Position numbers and translations under genes: made by a program. From a virus, in IMG/VR virus record IMGVR_UViG_3300045963_000097, positions 1 to 22,108 of that record: 22,108 nt of DNA; one strand, 5' to 3'. Under the pieces are notes generated by a model. It was given only the letters and a program-made list of their open reading frames with translations. It was not told where the DNA came from and ran no database searches. Position 1 is the stretch's first letter, and the number at the start of each line of letters is the position of its first letter. Positions 1 to 15,778 of the stretch are shown in pieces.

Positions 1-2510
1 ATGTCAGGTGCTCGCTGCGGCCCGCCATTGCCCGGCAGCCACCAGAACGACTGCCCCCATTCCTTCTGCGCGCGCTGCTGCATCTTCCCCAAATAGCCAG
101 GGCTCAGATTCTCCTGCAGCGCATGCATGCCCGCATGGTCGATGGCCGCCTTGGCGTACCAGAGGTTGACGTATGGCGCGTTGGCCCGCACCAGGTTGAT
201 GGCGTCAGCCGTGGCGTGCGTCTGCTTGCCCTTCGACGCTTCCCAGATGTTGCCGGCGCCGACCTTCAGCGTGGCGTCCAACACTGTGCCGATGGCTGGT
301 CCTACGATGGACTTGCCGGCGTTTATTGCCATGTCGGCAGGGTTGTTGCCGGGGTCATTCAGCAGCGTGTCGCCGACGATGGACAGTCCTCCACCCTGCG
401 CCGCGGCGCGCAGCCAGAACTTACCGGCGTGCTCTCCACGCATGTCGATCGGATCTTTTCCGGTGACGATCTGCTTGGCTTGCAGTGCGATCGCACCCAA
501 GGCCGTGGTGCTGACCAGCATGGCGCCTGAGTACATCAGCCGATTGGCCATCCTCGGCGCGCTGCCATCGCTCATCTGCGGCGCGTCGAGCATGCGGCGC
601 CAGTGGCGCGAGATCATGGCCACAGGGAACGACTTGAACTGCATCATGCTGCGCGCCAGTTCGCCGCGCACTGTGCCGCGCTGGGTGCCGCCGGCGCTGG
701 CGATAGCCTTGGTGGCTAGATCGGGATTGAGCACTGCGTATTCGCTCTCGTCGGTGATCAGGCCCAGCACCTTGGCGACGATTTCTCGGCTGTTGGCATC
801 GCCGGTGGCATGGATGCTCTCGGGCGTGAGGTGGTCCTTTCCGCTGAAGTTCGTCAGCGGCGCCTGCCGGATCACACCCCAGTCGGCCTCGGTCAGTCCC
901 GCTCGCTCCAGGTGGGTTCTGTCCCACTCGGTCAGCGCCGCCCAGTCCTTGCCGGCCATGCGCGCCAAGCCTTGCATCATCGTCAGCGAGTAAGCCCGGC
1001 GCAGCGTGTCGGTCCAAACATTCATCAGCGACAACTTCAGCACTGACTGCGCCAGCCGGCCGCTCCAGGTCTGCCGGATGTTGTCGTTCGTCCAGCGGTT
1101 CAGGTCGCCGATCATCGACTCGGCGATGATGCCGTGCGTGGTCAGGAAGTCGCGCGTGTCCTTGCTGCCGGCCACCTTGCCGTAATTGGCGAAGGCGTCC
1201 CAGTAGCTCAGCCGGTTGTAGCCGGTGCTGACGATGTAGGTGCCCAGGTCGGTGATGCTGCTGATCACCGCGCCGCCCAACTTGCCGAAGGTCTGGACGT
1301 TGCGCATGTCGGTGCCGATCTGCGCCAGGCGTGCGCTGGCCGGCGTGGCTGCGGTGCCGTTGATCACATCCCAGTAGGACTGCGGGCGCAGGCCCATCGT
1401 GCGCGGCAGGTTGTCCACCTTGAACCCGTCCGCCTTCGCCGCCAGTTGGAACTGCAGTCGCATCTGCGCCGCCGGGTTCGGGCCATAGCGCTCGACCAGG
1501 CCGATGTCACGCGCCATCTTGCCGACGTGGCCGACCATCGCGTCGTACATGCTGCCGGCGCCGTAGTCGTTGACGTAGGCCAGGAAGCTCTCGGCGTCCT
1601 TGAAGTGCAGTTCGCGGTGCGCGCTGCCGCTGTTGGATCGGGCACCGCTACCCTTGAAATCGCCCGGCACCTGCTTGTTCAAGCCGTCGCTGGCGATGGT
1701 CTCGTGCACCGCGCGCAGCATGTCTAGCACCTCGGCATCACCGAGTCGCGCGCCGGCCTCGTCCACGTACTTGCTGCGATCCAGCTTGGGCAACATCTCG
1801 GCCGACCACTTGTCAGCGCCAGCAGCACGTACCCGAGCGGAGTCGTGCGGCTGCGGAAGGTAGCCGTAGTCGAGCTGCCCCACGTTGCCGCCTGCCGAGT
1901 TGAAGCGCTGGCGCAGCTCTTCGATCACCTGGAGCCAGGCCTTAGCGCCTTCCTGCGCTACCTTGTTTCCCGTGGAACCATTGGCATTCGCGAACACCTC
2001 TGTTGCAAGGTCGCGCGTCATCTGCGGGTTCTGCACGTCGAACAGGAACATCGACACGCGGCGGCCGGTGCTGGCGCCTTCGCCGTCTTTCACGGCATCC
2101 ATCAGGTTGACCAGTCGAGCCATGCTCTCCTGCTTGATGCCGTTGATGTAGTTGCCCGTCTGGTCCATCTCGCGCACCAGGCCGTGCGATCGCTGTGTCT
2201 CGGAGAAAGCGGCCAGGGCCTGCGACACGCGCGCCTCAGTCGCCGCGGTCTTCACGATCTGAAGTTGGGCGTTCACCACCTTGCGAGCGGCCTCCCCTTG
2301 AATGTCCTGCATGGCGCGCTGGCTGGCCATCGTCAGGCGCTGATCAGCACTCAGGCTCTGCCATGTCGGTTCGGTGCCGGCCAGGTGGCGCATGGTGCGA
2401 CGCAGCCGACTGTCGATGTCGGCGAGCTGCGCCTCGGTCAGAGGCTTGGCGCGGCCCATGGCCTTCGCTGCAGCCTGGACAACGGGCTTACACTGAGGTT
2501 TCATGGCCAT
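1..2510 (-). CDS. Very large internal virion / ejection protein (T7 gp16-like by position), C-terminus outside window
   Basis: The frame is open from the start to the left edge, with 836 codons visible and no stop. ATGs at 2510 and 2504 are in frame and a stop lies two codons before the first, so the start is well bounded although no Shine-Dalgarno sequence is evident. The N-terminal ~250 residues are helical, followed by GYLPQPHDSARVRAAGADKW. Residues ~406-432 carry GKLGGAVISSITDLGTYIVS, a signature I associate with large podovirus ejection proteins. A hydrophobic stretch MLVSTTALGAIALQ lies near 660. Unlike T7 gp16, the N-terminus has no visible transglycosylase domain. It probably forms part of the DNA-ejection channel. 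Confidence 0.82.
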   Translation of the reverse strand, partial: MAMKPQCKPVVQAAAKAMGRAKPLTEAQLADIDSRLRRTMRHLAGTEPTWQSLSADQRLTMASQRAMQDIQGEAARKVVNAQLQIVKTAATEARVSQALAAFSETQRSHGLVREMDQTGNYINGIKQESMARLVNLMDAVKDGEGASTGRRVSMFLFDVQNPQMTRDLATEVFANANGSTGNKVAQEGAKAWLQVIEELRQRFNSAGGNVGQLDYGYLPQPHDSARVRAAGADKWSAEMLPKLDRSKYVDEAGARLGDAEVLDMLRAVHETIASDGLNKQVPGDFKGSGARSNSGSAHRELHFKDAESFLAYVNDYGAGSMYDAMVGHVGKMARDIGLVERYGPNPAAQMRLQFQLAAKADGFKVDNLPRTMGLRPQSYWDVINGTAATPASARLAQIGTDMRNVQTFGKLGGAVISSITDLGTYIVSTGYNRLSYWDAFANYGKVAGSKDTRDFLTTHGIIAESMIGDLNRWTNDNIRQTWSGRLAQSVLKLSLMNVWTDTLRRAYSLTMMQGLARMAGKDWAALTEWDRTHLERAGLTEADWGVIRQAPLTNFSGKDHLTPESIHATGDANSREIVAKVLGLITDESEYAVLNPDLATKAIASAGGTQRGTVRGELARSMMQFKSFPVAMISRHWRRMLDAPQMSDGSAPRMANRLMYSGAMLVSTTALGAIALQAKQIVTGKDPIDMRGEHAGKFWLRAAAQGGGLSIVGDTLLNDPGNNPADMAINAGKSIVGPAIGTVLDATLKVGAGNIWEASKGKQTHATADAINLVRANAPYVNLWYAKAAIDHAGMHALQENLSPGYLGKMQQRAQKEWGQSFWWLPGNGGPQRAPD

Positions 2511-12287: not shown

Positions 12288-13172
12288 TCAGACTGACGAC
12301 TGGAACGACATCGAGCCCGTGCGCTTGGCGGCCGTCCCATGCAACGCGGCGTAGTGCGCCGCCACCTTGGCCTTGACCACTGCATGCTGCGGGTCGTTCG
12401 GGTTCCAGTAGGCAGCCGACTTCGCCAACGACTCGACATCGGGCTCCGCCATCGCTCCAGCGGCGGCCGGCGTGCCACGGTCCTCGCCCAGTTCCTTGCC
12501 CACCGCAGCCAGCAGCCGCACGATGCGCGGGTCGTTGCCGTGGTCCTTCAAGATGCCTTCGAAGTCGGCGCCGCCGTATGCCTTGCCGGCGCGATAGGCA
12601 GCCTGCACGCCCGCCTGGAATTCGGCGTCGGTCTTCCAACCCTGGCGCAGTTCGGCCGTGGCCGCCTCGGCGCTGAGTTGGTCGCCGGCGGCGGCGTTCT
12701 TGATGCTGCGGTCCAGGAACTCGCCGACCACGGTGTCGAGCTGCTTCTGCGTCAGGCCCACCCCGTGCGCCTTGGCCAGGAACGCCTTGAAGGCTTCATT
12801 GCCCGCCAGGTCTTCAGCCTTCAGCTTGTCGGCCAGCGCCTCGGGCACCGTGACCTTGTAGTCCTCCACGGTCTTGGGCGGCATGTCGCCGGAGCCGAAG
12901 CGCTTTTCCAGGTGGGTGTACGCCTCGCCCATCTTCTTGGCCGAGTCTTCCAGGTTCAGCGTCTTGCCGTCTTCGCCGAACACGCGCAGCTTTTCCGGCA
13001 GCCACGCATGTGGGTCGGCCGGCGCTTGCGGCGTTGGCGCTGCCGCCGCGCCGCTGCCAAGAACGGAAGCAGGTGCAGCAGCGGGTGCGGCAACCGGCGC
13101 AGATGCGGCGGGAGCAGCATCAGGAGAAGCAGCAGTAGAAGGCGCTGCATTGCCAGAGGTGTCGTCAGACAT
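12288..13172 (-). CDS. Capsid assembly scaffolding protein (T7 gp9-like, 294 aa)
   Basis: The ATG at 13172 has AAGGA about ten bases upstream and overlaps the end of the repeat-protein gene by eight bases. The N-terminal ~55 residues are Ala/Pro-rich and probably disordered, followed by DPHAWLPEKLRVFGEDGKTL, a start pattern I associate with phage capsid-assembly proteins. Helices with KMGEAYTHLEKRFGSG, EDYKVTVPEALADKLKAED and VVGEFLDRS follow. The protein is charged and highly helical, ends with a helix AHYAALHGTAAKRTGSMSFQ, and sits directly before the major capsid gene, as in T7 (gp9, about 307 residues). It would direct procapsid assembly and then leave. The stop is followed by the 194-base leader. 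Confidence 0.88.
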   Translation of the reverse strand: MSDDTSGNAAPSTAASPDAAPAASAPVAAPAAAPASVLGSGAAAAPTPQAPADPHAWLPEKLRVFGEDGKTLNLEDSAKKMGEAYTHLEKRFGSGDMPPKTVEDYKVTVPEALADKLKAEDLAGNEAFKAFLAKAHGVGLTQKQLDTVVGEFLDRSIKNAAAGDQLSAEAATAELRQGWKTDAEFQAGVQAAYRAGKAYGGADFEGILKDHGNDPRIVRLLAAVGKELGEDRGTPAAAGAMAEPDVESLAKSAAYWNPNDPQHAVVKAKVAAHYAALHGTAAKRTGSMSFQSSV

Positions 13173-14307
13173 GTTCGATGGTCCTTGTCATGGGTAGGGG
13201 TTGTGAGCGGATCAGCTCCGCTCGGGCTTGACTGCGCACCAGCTCGGGCCGTGGCGCAGAAATTTGCAGGGCAATCGGCATCGGGCATCGACCGGCCCAT
13301 GCGAAGCCGGCGTGAGCTCCCGGCGCCGCCACGGGCCTTCGCGGCTTGCCGATGACCGGCGGCAGCGCTCTGGCGCTCCAGACCATCCGTGCGCGGGTGC
13401 GGCGGGCGATCTGGTCATAGCCGGCCTGGTTGCCGACGTACTGCACAAGCACGGGCGTCTGCACCTGGGAGATGAAGCCCAGCTCGGCGAAGACATCAGC
13501 CGCAACGACATCGGTTCCGGGTGCGGTGATGACTGGCGCATCGACGGCAGCAGACCACGCGAACGAGCCAGCCACGTCAGCGGCCAGCGTGTCGTAGATC
13601 GGCGCACCGACGCTGGCTGAGAAGCTGAACGAAGCCGACACCGTTGAGGCTGTCGTGTCGCTGGAGCCGGTGCTAGGTGCGCCAGCGGCTGCACTCCATG
13701 CGAACGACCCGGCGACATCGGGGGAGACGGTGTCATAGGTCGGAGCCCCGACGCTGGCGCTCCAGGCAAACGAGGCGGCAACGCTGGATGCCGTCGTGTC
13801 GCTGCCTCCGACGCTTGGAGCCGACGCATTGGCAGACCACGCGAAGGAAGCGCTGGCCGCTGGCGTCGTCGTGCCCACCAGTGGCGCAGAGGGTGACGCG
13901 GTCCAGACGAATGACCCGGCAACGGCTGGAGAGTTGACCCCGACCAGCGGCGCTGATGGGCTGGACAGCCATGCGAAGGTGCCAGCAATGCTCGATGCGT
14001 TGACGCCGACAAGCGGGGCGCTGGGTGATGCTGTCCAGGCGAACGATGCAGAGACGGTCGCCGCGTTGACGCCGACCAGTGGCGACGCCACGCTGGCCGA
14101 CCATGCGAAAGAACCGGCAGCGGTCGCGCTGCTGATGTCGATCAGCGGTGTCGATGCCGACGCGGACCAGGCGAAGCTGGCCGCGATGGTTGGCGCCGTG
14201 GTCGGCGAGCTGCCGCCGCTGCCGGCCGTCGTCGGGTCGCGCAGCCGAACATCGTTCGGGTTGGCGTCTGATGGGACGCTGTAGAGAAATACGTCGTTGC
14301 CGGCCAC
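13165..14307 (-). CDS. Tandem-repeat virion-associated protein (FAWSA repeats, 380 aa)
   Basis: The start is GTG at 14307, with AAGGGG about ten bases upstream. Residues ~40-265 hold ten tandem units of consensus xVAxSFAWSASxxAPLVGVx. The Phe of each unit is at 45, 67, 89, 111, 133, 155, 180, 202, 227 and 249, giving spacings of 22 with two of 25 where a GSDTTA-like insertion occurs. Degenerate units follow near residues 273, 308 and 335. The C-terminus is Arg/Pro-rich and repeats an R-x-E-L-(V/I)-R-S-Q motif. Such repeats suggest a beta-solenoid, fibre or extended surface protein. The last eight bases overlap the scaffold gene. I do not know a named family. Confidence 0.8.
   Translation of the reverse strand: MAGNDVFLYSVPSDANPNDVRLRDPTTAGSGGSSPTTAPTIAASFAWSASASTPLIDISSATAAGSFAWSASVASPLVGVNAATVSASFAWTASPSAPLVGVNASSIAGTFAWLSSPSAPLVGVNSPAVAGSFVWTASPSAPLVGTTTPAASASFAWSANASAPSVGGSDTTASSVAASFAWSASVGAPTYDTVSPDVAGSFAWSAAAGAPSTGSSDTTASTVSASFSFSASVGAPIYDTLAADVAGSFAWSAAVDAPVITAPGTDVVAADVFAELGFISQVQTPVLVQYVGNQAGYDQIARRTRARMVWSARALPPVIGKPRRPVAAPGAHAGFAWAGRCPMPIALQISAPRPELVRSQARAELIRSQPLPMTRTIEHV
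13513..14190 (-). repeat. Ten in-frame 66/75-base tandem coding repeats
   Basis: Within the 380-residue protein, DNA units of 66 bases (22 codons), with two of 75 bases, repeat ten times; the units are diverged, mostly about 50-80% alike at protein level. All length changes preserve the reading frame. The two 75-base units share a Gly-Ser-Asp-Thr-Thr-Ala-type extension, so they probably arose by duplication of a unit pair. Confidence 0.88.
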
Positions 14308-14320
14308 GGCAGCGAGCCCC

Positions 14321-14776
14321 TTACGTCGCGATCAGCGTGTTGACCGTGGTTCCGGCCACGTCAGGCGATCCGCTCTTGTAGGCCACGATGTAGTACGGGC
14401 CCGATCCTGGGTTCCAGAAGGTGAAGTTGCCAGATGCATCAGACTGCGTCTGCGCCGCCAGCGTGTCGGCATGCGTCATGTACAGGTCCAGGTCGCACAG
14501 CGGCAGCGCGGTGCCGCTGGAGTCTCGCGTCACGCCTGAGAGCGCTCGGTTGACCAGCGCGAACGGCGTAGCCCTGAACGGCGCAACGCCAGGCGATGCC
14601 CTGAGCAGCTGGCTGTGCGGCTTCGGCCTTGGCGGCGTGCACCCTGCCCCTGGCCCCATCATGGTCGGCGGCCCGCCACTGCCACCAGACCAGCCGGCAG
14701 CACGGCCCGGCGTGGCGACGAGCGAAGGCCCGCCAGCACGCTGAAGACCCGCGCTTCCGCCGACTGCGATTGGCAT
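14321..14776 (-). CDS. Phage protein with carboxypeptidase-regulatory-like beta domain (151 aa)
   Basis: The ATG at 14776 lies one base after the preceding stop (TGA-C-ATG). The N-terminal half is Gly/Pro-rich and probably disordered, with the run GGSGGPPTMMGPGAG at about 31-45. From about residue 77 a compact beta domain follows: SGVTRDSSGTALPLCDLDLY (79-98), then a SDASGNFTFWNPGSGPYYIV strand (112-131) and a C-terminal VNTLIAT. This SG-V-DxxGxPL...SDasGnFtf...GpYyivaYk pattern is that of carboxypeptidase regulatory-like/transthyretin-like domains, which phages use as virion decoration or fibre modules. A surface-exposed role is inference. Confidence 0.72.
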   Translation of the reverse strand: MPIAVGGSAGLQRAGGPSLVATPGRAAGWSGGSGGPPTMMGPGAGCTPPRPKPHSQLLRASPGVAPFRATPFALVNRALSGVTRDSSGTALPLCDLDLYMTHADTLAAQTQSDASGNFTFWNPGSGPYYIVAYKSGSPDVAGTTVNTLIAT

Positions 14777-14777
14777 G

Positions 14778-15341
14778 TCAGTTCAGCGCGTCCACACGGT
14801 AGCCGTGGACGGTCATGCTGCCGGTGGCAACGGTCTGCGTGAAGAACACATCCAGCGCGTTGGCCGCCGTGTTGTCGAAGCCTGTGCCGACTGCGGGTGC
14901 TCCGACGGGGACCAGCAGGCCACCATTGCCGCCCGCCGTGTTGACCGGAGCGCCGACCAGGGCCTCCGACTGGAAGTTGCCGACGCCCATGAAGTTGGTC
15001 GTCGTCGTGGCGCCCACAGCGCGGCAGGTCAGCCAGATTTCCAGCAACCACGGCACCGTGGTCTTCGCCACGATGTTCAGGTTCATCGCGCCCGAGTCGA
15101 ACACCACGATAGTCCCCGATGGGCCCATGCGGACGTCGAAGCGCGCCGTGCCGGGGGTCGTCACCGCACAACTGATCCGGCCGTGCAAGATGATCTTGAT
15201 GATCTTGCCGACATAGAAGTAGTTGTTCGGCAAGATGATTCGAGAGGCCGTCGGGATGCACGATGCAGCAGCCGCAGCGGTGAGGGTTGGGCCGTCGACG
15301 CTGCCCGCGACGATGGTTTCTTGCCAGGTCTGGATGCTCAT
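14778..15341 (-). CDS. Beta-rich virion protein (187 aa)
   Basis: The ATG at 15341 has GAGG about nine bases upstream in the short 20-base gap. The product alternates hydrophobic strands and small loops over its full length, for example ASRIILPNNYFYVGKIIKII at 32-51 and TVPWLLEIWLTCRAVGATTT at 93-112, with a final strand GSMTVHGYRVDALN. This is the character of a jelly-roll-type phage surface or tail-fibre-associated protein. The glycine-rich loop between about 138 and 150 may be flexible. Similar proteins of about 190 residues lie in head operons of related phages. No specific function can be assigned. Confidence 0.72.
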   Translation of the reverse strand: MSIQTWQETIVAGSVDGPTLTAAAAASCIPTASRIILPNNYFYVGKIIKIILHGRISCAVTTPGTARFDVRMGPSGTIVVFDSGAMNLNIVAKTTVPWLLEIWLTCRAVGATTTTNFMGVGNFQSEALVGAPVNTAGGNGGLLVPVGAPAVGTGFDNTAANALDVFFTQTVATGSMTVHGYRVDALN

Positions 15342-15361
15342 TGCGGGTTACCTCGATCTCA

Positions 15362-15778
15362 TCAAGTCGTCTGCACCGGATTCGTCAGCGGCACCGTGAA
15401 CGTGCCGCCGCCACCCGTGAACGTGCCGCCGAAGCTGCCCACCGCTACAGCCCGATTGCTCTTGCTGCTGTTGTAGATCAGCCATCCTGCGGCGCTGAAT
15501 GTGGCCGTCGCCCAGGTCGCATCGGCCCAGTCCAGAGACAGCCGACCAGAGCTGCTGGCCGTGGTGCCGGTGAGCGTCACGCCACCCGTGGTGTAGCCGG
15601 CGCCGCTGGCCACCTCGTCGGTCGCGAGGTCGCTGTAGTTGGTGGTCGCCTGCCCCAGCGTGCCGGCGCTGGACGGCTTGATCAGCGCCAGCTTGTAGGT
15701 GTCGGTCGTGAAGTGCCCGATGGTGCTGTTGACCAGCTCGCGGGTGAAGGTGTCGCAGACTGCTGTGGTGATGCTCAT
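15362..15778 (-). CDS. Conserved phage structural protein (138 aa)
   Basis: The ATG at 15778 forms an ATGA junction with the Bbp19-like gene. The protein is beta-rich and Ser/Thr/Gly-rich. It has an N-terminal strand followed by TYKLALIKPSSAGTLGQATT at 27-46, a segment with YSDLATDEVASGAGYTTGGV at 48-67, then an aromatic Trp-containing strand pair and a SNRAVAV strand near the C-terminus. These features recur in a common phage head-operon family usually labelled hypothetical or structural. No enzymatic motif is present. A minor capsid or neck role is inferred from position. Confidence 0.78.
   Translation of the reverse strand: MSITTAVCDTFTRELVNSTIGHFTTDTYKLALIKPSSAGTLGQATTNYSDLATDEVASGAGYTTGGVTLTGTTASSSGRLSLDWADATWATATFSAAGWLIYNSSKSNRAVAVGSFGGTFTGGGGTFTVPLTNPVQTT

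Follow-up and report, generated by a model that had tools for sequence, protein, structure and literature searches.

A constant leader in front of changing repeats: a candidate surface-fibre cassette exchanged between phages with unrelated capsids

The DNA analysed here (the window) is a virus record of 22,108 bases, probably a fragment, whose major capsid protein belongs to PF19821 (7.6e-70) and whose portal belongs to PF12236 (5.3e-103). Between the portal and scaffold genes lies a short run of genes with no recognised tail fibre gene beside it. Read in the direction of transcription, a gene with a transthyretin-like (TTR-like) product is followed by a repeat-protein gene, a probable scaffold gene and then the major capsid protein gene. 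The features that matter for what follows are these, all on the minus strand:

15362..15778 (-), g138: 138 aa; matches PHROG 644, of unknown function, at 1.3e-15; often the first cassette gene
14778..15341 (-), g187: 187 aa, belonging to an unnamed family; marks the upstream limit of the DNA in common with L006
14321..14776 (-), TTR-like (CarboxypepD_reg-like) gene: 151 aa; the upstream partner; PF13620 at 1.6e-4, sub-threshold
13165..14307 (-), leader-repeat gene: encodes 380 aa and starts with GTG; shares 8 bases at its stop with the start of the following gene
14230..14307 (-), conserved leader: residues 1-26, M/V-AGNDVFLYSVPSDANPNDVRLRDPT; 54-81% identical in six other phages
13510..14187 (-), ten-unit array: residues 41-266; consensus VAGSFAWSASxxAPLVGVNxxT; units 22 residues apart, twice 25
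13165..13509 (-), C-terminal region of the leader-repeat gene: made up of three degenerate units plus a cap; L031, the sister phage, has it at 81% identity
14209..15341 (-), DNA in common with L006/L012: 1133 bp, 77% identical, a single match

A sequence-only reading of the window had described ten units of 22 residues at 13513-14190, with two spacings of 25, decaying toward the C-terminus and lying between a beta-sandwich-like gene and a scaffold gene. Both neighbours were correctly identified, and the core positions reproduce the count and spacing exactly: ten F[AVS][WF] cores in the 380-residue protein, between residues 45 and 249, separated by 22, 22, 22, 22, 22, 25, 22, 25 and 22 residues. 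The array as measured, 14187-13510, lies about 3 bases away from the position first given. Beyond residue 30, the protein has a self-identity of 0.30 at a lag of 22; none of 300 shuffles exceeds 0.18. The decay goes further than had been described, into three additional degenerate units (FAELGFISQVQTPVLV, ARMVWSARALPPVIG and AGFAWAGRCPMPIAL; residues 273-352). Both 25-residue spacings come from duplication of a 47-residue block of two units (units 6+7 and 8+9), the matching units of which are 68% identical. In a second contig a leader-repeat gene is present whose product is 100% identical over its full 380 residues; the array is therefore no product of faulty assembly.

Comparison of unit number in a sister phage, which the sequence-only reading had proposed, is informative. 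L031, with scaffold, capsid and tail genes that are related to those of the window, has six clean units where the window has ten, followed by the same degenerate units and a C-terminal region 81% identical to the window's. The best matches of L031 units 4-6 are window units 8-10 (77, 68 and 77%), and the 47-residue two-unit block that is present twice in the window is present once in L031. The proposed variation in unit number is borne out by the sisters. Easy present-day slippage is unlikely: the units of the window array are 33-67% identical to each other in DNA, with 14 bases the longest exact repeat, implying that the change in number is old or came about by exchange.

The window repeat protein finds no match in Pfam, PHROG or PDB (in Pfam, nothing reaches E 1). 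A known family for the FAWSA repeats was rejected on this basis, in agreement with the earlier reading, to which no named phage family was known. The phage record collection that was searched likewise holds no match to the repeat protein or to g187. A profile of the repeat unit, also suggested at the outset, matches only the window and L031; the repeats of other leader proteins score no better than reversed sequences, and kinship of FAWSA with them was therefore rejected. FAWSA units do agree in register and spacing with a class of GSF-x-LTG repeats. The window protein shows no receptor-binding domain at its C-terminus. The N-terminal PF03906 domain is absent from it in the Pfam search, which sets it outside the T7-type tail fibres. 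Neither the repeat protein nor g187 has an Ig-like match in Pfam or PHROG, a kind of search that can miss remote Ig-like folds.

Structure prediction yields models of low confidence: AlphaFold gives the repeat protein a mean pLDDT of 51 from the single sequence and of 53.9 with an alignment of ten sequences. In both models, each 22-residue unit in the array's first half has one long stretch of beta structure with a short turn. Foldseek returns no match to the weak model below E 0.001 (best, E 0.37). A second-look structure aligner puts parallel beta-helices first, with EtpA at Z 12.9 over 239 residues at 3.7 A, although middling Z scores are common for repeats and limit the weight of that value. 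On these weak models, a beta-solenoid is the likely, though tentative, fold of the repeat array.

The main point of this work is one that cannot be seen from a single sequence: the start of the protein is constant and the repeats behind it are exchangeable. The window protein begins with a leader of ~26 residues, MAGNDVFLYSVPSDANPNDVRLRDPT. A scan with the entire protein returns one near-identical contig and six relatives, which align over the first 26-185 residues, chiefly the leader; their repeats differ. In each of the six a TTR-like gene is present near the leader gene. Scans with the TTR-like gene, in which the leader was not used, return 22 and 80 loci (a combined TTR alignment is too diverse for scanning), and directly downstream in nearly all of these lies a gene starting M-x-D-[IV]-x-L-Y...DV-x-L-x-DPT and continuing into repeats; the choice of start codon gave leader-like starts a bonus here, which makes the exact fraction slightly favourable and leaves the pattern itself unaffected. 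With duplicates removed, the family set comprises 70 non-redundant metagenomic phage loci and their proteins. The leader motif is found in 63 of them, against 0.7% of shuffled sequences. Sixty-one of the 70 proteins have a repeat period stronger than that of every shuffle, and in 57 of these 61 arrays the period is 20, 21, 22 or 23 residues (12, 20, 20 and 5 arrays, respectively); it is 24 in three and 18 in one. The repeat bodies themselves fall into 47 clusters, with almost no common 5-residue peptides beyond 11 small groups. The leader peptide and the matched PDB entries (below) find no mention in the literature searched.

Some members of the family depart from the simple plan. At L027:6295-7002 the leader is followed by a laminin-G/concanavalin-like (lectin-like) domain in place of repeats (PF13385, 1.7e-8, above the cut-off). 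At L044:8256-9287 two tandem leaders precede the repeats; this locus is the P22-type metagenomic podovirus MW202691, where the gene is annotated as hypothetical, and it is the one match to the TTR-like query in the phage record collection. An acidic-leucine pattern at the C-terminus is matched by 28 of the 70 proteins. Such tails (for example RRKDETELLLLAA and EDEDELILLLAA) occur in L004, L006, L021, L033, L054, L058, L061, L110 and L119, the repeats of which are unrelated; one might speculate that the tail, which the window protein lacks, is an assembly signal in the relatives that have it.

The partner genes define the cassette family as used here: a leader gene with an adjacent TTR-like gene and usually g187, an arrangement that is found in the window. 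By profile, the TTR-like gene is present in 68 of the 70 loci, upstream of the leader gene in every untruncated one; the remaining two loci are cut at that place. Profile matches to g187 are found at 54 loci. The count for g138-like genes (27/70) is rough, because the g138 seed was mixed. For g187 there is no PHROG match and one chance-level match each in PDB and Pfam. The window TTR-like gene scores 22.4 bits against PF13620, where the curated cut-off is 32.3; 15 of 19 TTR-like members match that family at E 0.01 or better, the best at 1.5e-7. Among bacterial genomes the TTR-like query finds four CarboxypepD_reg-like proteins, each matching only part of it. Hints of a tail-fibre connection come from the best PDB match of the TTR-like profile, a chain named Tail fiber protein in 9e7m/9mgh (0.002), which we take from its sequence to be lambda Stf; from PF08400, the prophage tail fibre N-terminal family, matched by one of the 19 members (0.0016); and from a PHROG called tail fiber protein, matched by a single member (6.5e-4). 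TTR-like domains are widespread, and the hint is accordingly a weak one.

The cassette also travels. The match between the window and L006 runs from the g187 start codon (15341) to 33 codons into the leader gene (14209), with unrelated flanks, and the two phages have unrelated capsids (PF19821 in the window vs the HK97-type PF05065 in L006). L085 and L087 have 1895 bp in common at 96.7%, from approximately the start codon of a g138-like gene to a point inside the last repeats, and no protein similarity beyond the cassette. L101 and L108 have only the cassette in common, 2833 bp at 95%, the match again ending within repeats. In these three pairs, then, the leader and the repeats are end points of exchange. 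Assembly chimaeras are an unlikely source of the common cassettes, since the blocks have diverged by 3-23% and those of window/L006 and L085/L087 start within two bases of start codons. As judged from such comparisons, the cassette genes pass as a block between unrelated phages. A separate observation concerns L031:1-180 and L033:1-180, from one metagenome, in which near-identical ends of the TTR-like gene are followed by different repeat proteins and head genes.

The best named relatives of the window are HTVC010P-type pelagiphages, with capsid proteins at most 46% identical. Baldr, the closest of them, has a single gene of 73 residues between its portal and capsid assembly protein genes and no cassette there, which makes the block 13165-15778 an addition relative to Baldr. 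The window's portal and capsid genes are common to few of the loci, and the capsids of the carriers belong to at least four families (PF19821, PF05065, P22 coat and cap E); no cultured phage turned up among these carriers. At the left end of the window an open frame of 836 aa (3-2510, minus strand) runs off the sequence, without a Pfam match, beside genes of 704 and 675 aa; the position suggests internal virion proteins.

What might such a cassette be for? We think it reasonably probable that the leader-repeat protein is the shaft of an accessory virion-surface fibre, or of a fibre-like decoration, that comes from an exchangeable cassette. The order of genes is often a PHROG-644-like gene, then g187, the TTR-like gene and the leader-repeat gene. 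The leader, perhaps together with the TTR-like and g187 proteins, would dock the fibre onto the virion; the beta coils of ~20-23 residues would form an outward shaft or a binding surface; and a swap of array, or of array length, would change what the particle touches. Support for an accessory surface fibre comes from the TTR-like tail-fibre matches, the lectin-like member, the transfer as a block and the absence from Baldr. The linkage of leader and TTR-like gene, the steady period despite unrelated sequences and the beta stretches of the two weak models also speak for it. The sequence-only reading had offered a surface fibre, a decoration or a tape-like scaffold part: the first two fare best, on indirect evidence, but the last has found no support. 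More tentatively, the cassette may be a widespread mobile structural element, previously undescribed, in which the leader, the TTR-like protein and g187 make a general socket that lets phages with unrelated capsids take up any beta-structured array with coils of 20-23 residues, or a lectin domain, with junctions at the leader or in the repeats allowing the surface fibre to be exchanged.

The location between portal and scaffold does not choose between head and tail, and a decoration or cement role, with cassette proteins stabilising the capsid or binding environmental surfaces and taking no part in host recognition, has to be weighed. We regard it as unlikely. The cassette often lies just before the scaffold or protease gene and the major capsid protein gene, the window protein has no visible receptor-binding domain, and decoration proteins are described as accessory (PMC7602432). 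However, with at least four capsid families among the carriers it is hard to see how a leader could be tailored to one capsid surface, and other loci place the cassette beside tail tubular or nozzle genes. An internal or assembly protein (tape-like, a scaffold helper or injected with the DNA) has the adjoining scaffold gene in its favour, as well as the acidic-leucine tails and coiled-coil-like linkers of several relatives. It is nonetheless improbable: the related phage Baldr does without the cassette, the cassette moves among unrelated capsids, the repeats differ in almost every phage and, at L027, a lectin-like domain can replace them; a tape or scaffold role was rejected on these grounds.

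A similarly low probability attaches to a non-virion factor, acting inside the cell in host takeover or counter-defence, for instance, and encoded in a mobile late-operon cassette. Accessory status, mobility and fast change of sequence would suit such a factor, but beta-rich, low-complexity repeats whose period is strictly kept, together with partners of TTR-like and lectin-like type and a location in the structural operon, are better suited to a component of the particle. That the array is functionless repeat expansion behind a conserved start seems very improbable; the units do differ among phages, and their number varies, yet 57 of 61 arrays keep a period of 20-23, the C-terminal cap is 81% identical between sisters and the entire cassette has been transferred repeatedly.

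By itself, the window protein would be an orphan curiosity; it gains significance from the many arrays that stand behind a constant leader. Host-range variation of phages has mostly been sought at the tips of tail fibres. If the accessory surface fibre is real, the cassette would be a second, accessory site at which surface proteins are swapped in blocks across unrelated heads, in phages that include capsid types close to those of pelagiphages. The leader also serves as a searchable tag for repeat proteins that are otherwise unrecognisable and are missed by Pfam and PHROGs, and arrays that hold their period while their sequence varies freely amount to a natural test of the demands that a repeat fold makes.

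Several known systems invite comparison. Parallel beta-helix adhesins and lyases (TpsA secretion domains, Cthe_2159, PL3/PL6) likewise have 20-23 residues per repeat, and the weak models align with them at Z 10-12.9, with confidence too low for assigning a fold; they have no sequence relation to the window repeats (the relative L007 matches PF14262, Cthe_2159, at 9e-4, below the cut-off). EBPR siphovirus 2 gp72 and the Manatee Spring podovirus MW202742 have 22-residue repeats of the GSF-x-LTG type, as do L007, L121 and L085, but these two show no leader, and the neighbouring genes tested include neither a TTR-like gene nor g187. In gp72 (L124:3422-6181, JF412297) the leaderless repeats open a long protein whose gene stands with tail genes; in MW202742 (L123:1947-3323) the repeat protein, also leaderless, has a gene annotated as pectate lyase a few genes upstream, and the podovirus capsid protein is related. 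The lambda-type side tail fibre (PF08400) bears a weak likeness to the TTR-like profile (0.002), but here the TTR-like domain is a separate protein with an N-terminal part of its own, encoded before the repeat protein; with TTR-like domain and repeats in separate genes in the loci read, a fibre of that type was set aside. The T7-type tail fibres of pelagiphages share the plan of the leader-repeat cassette and differ in their anchor (Mizuno et al. 2014, PMC3909814). Their anchor is PF03906, in contrast to a 26-residue leader with separate TTR-like and g187 genes; the cassette also occupies a different place among the genes, and exchange of the whole cassette is what the present comparisons bring out. 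An anchor bearing a phage-specific repeat shaft is a known design; this leader-based, exchanged cassette is a new form of it.
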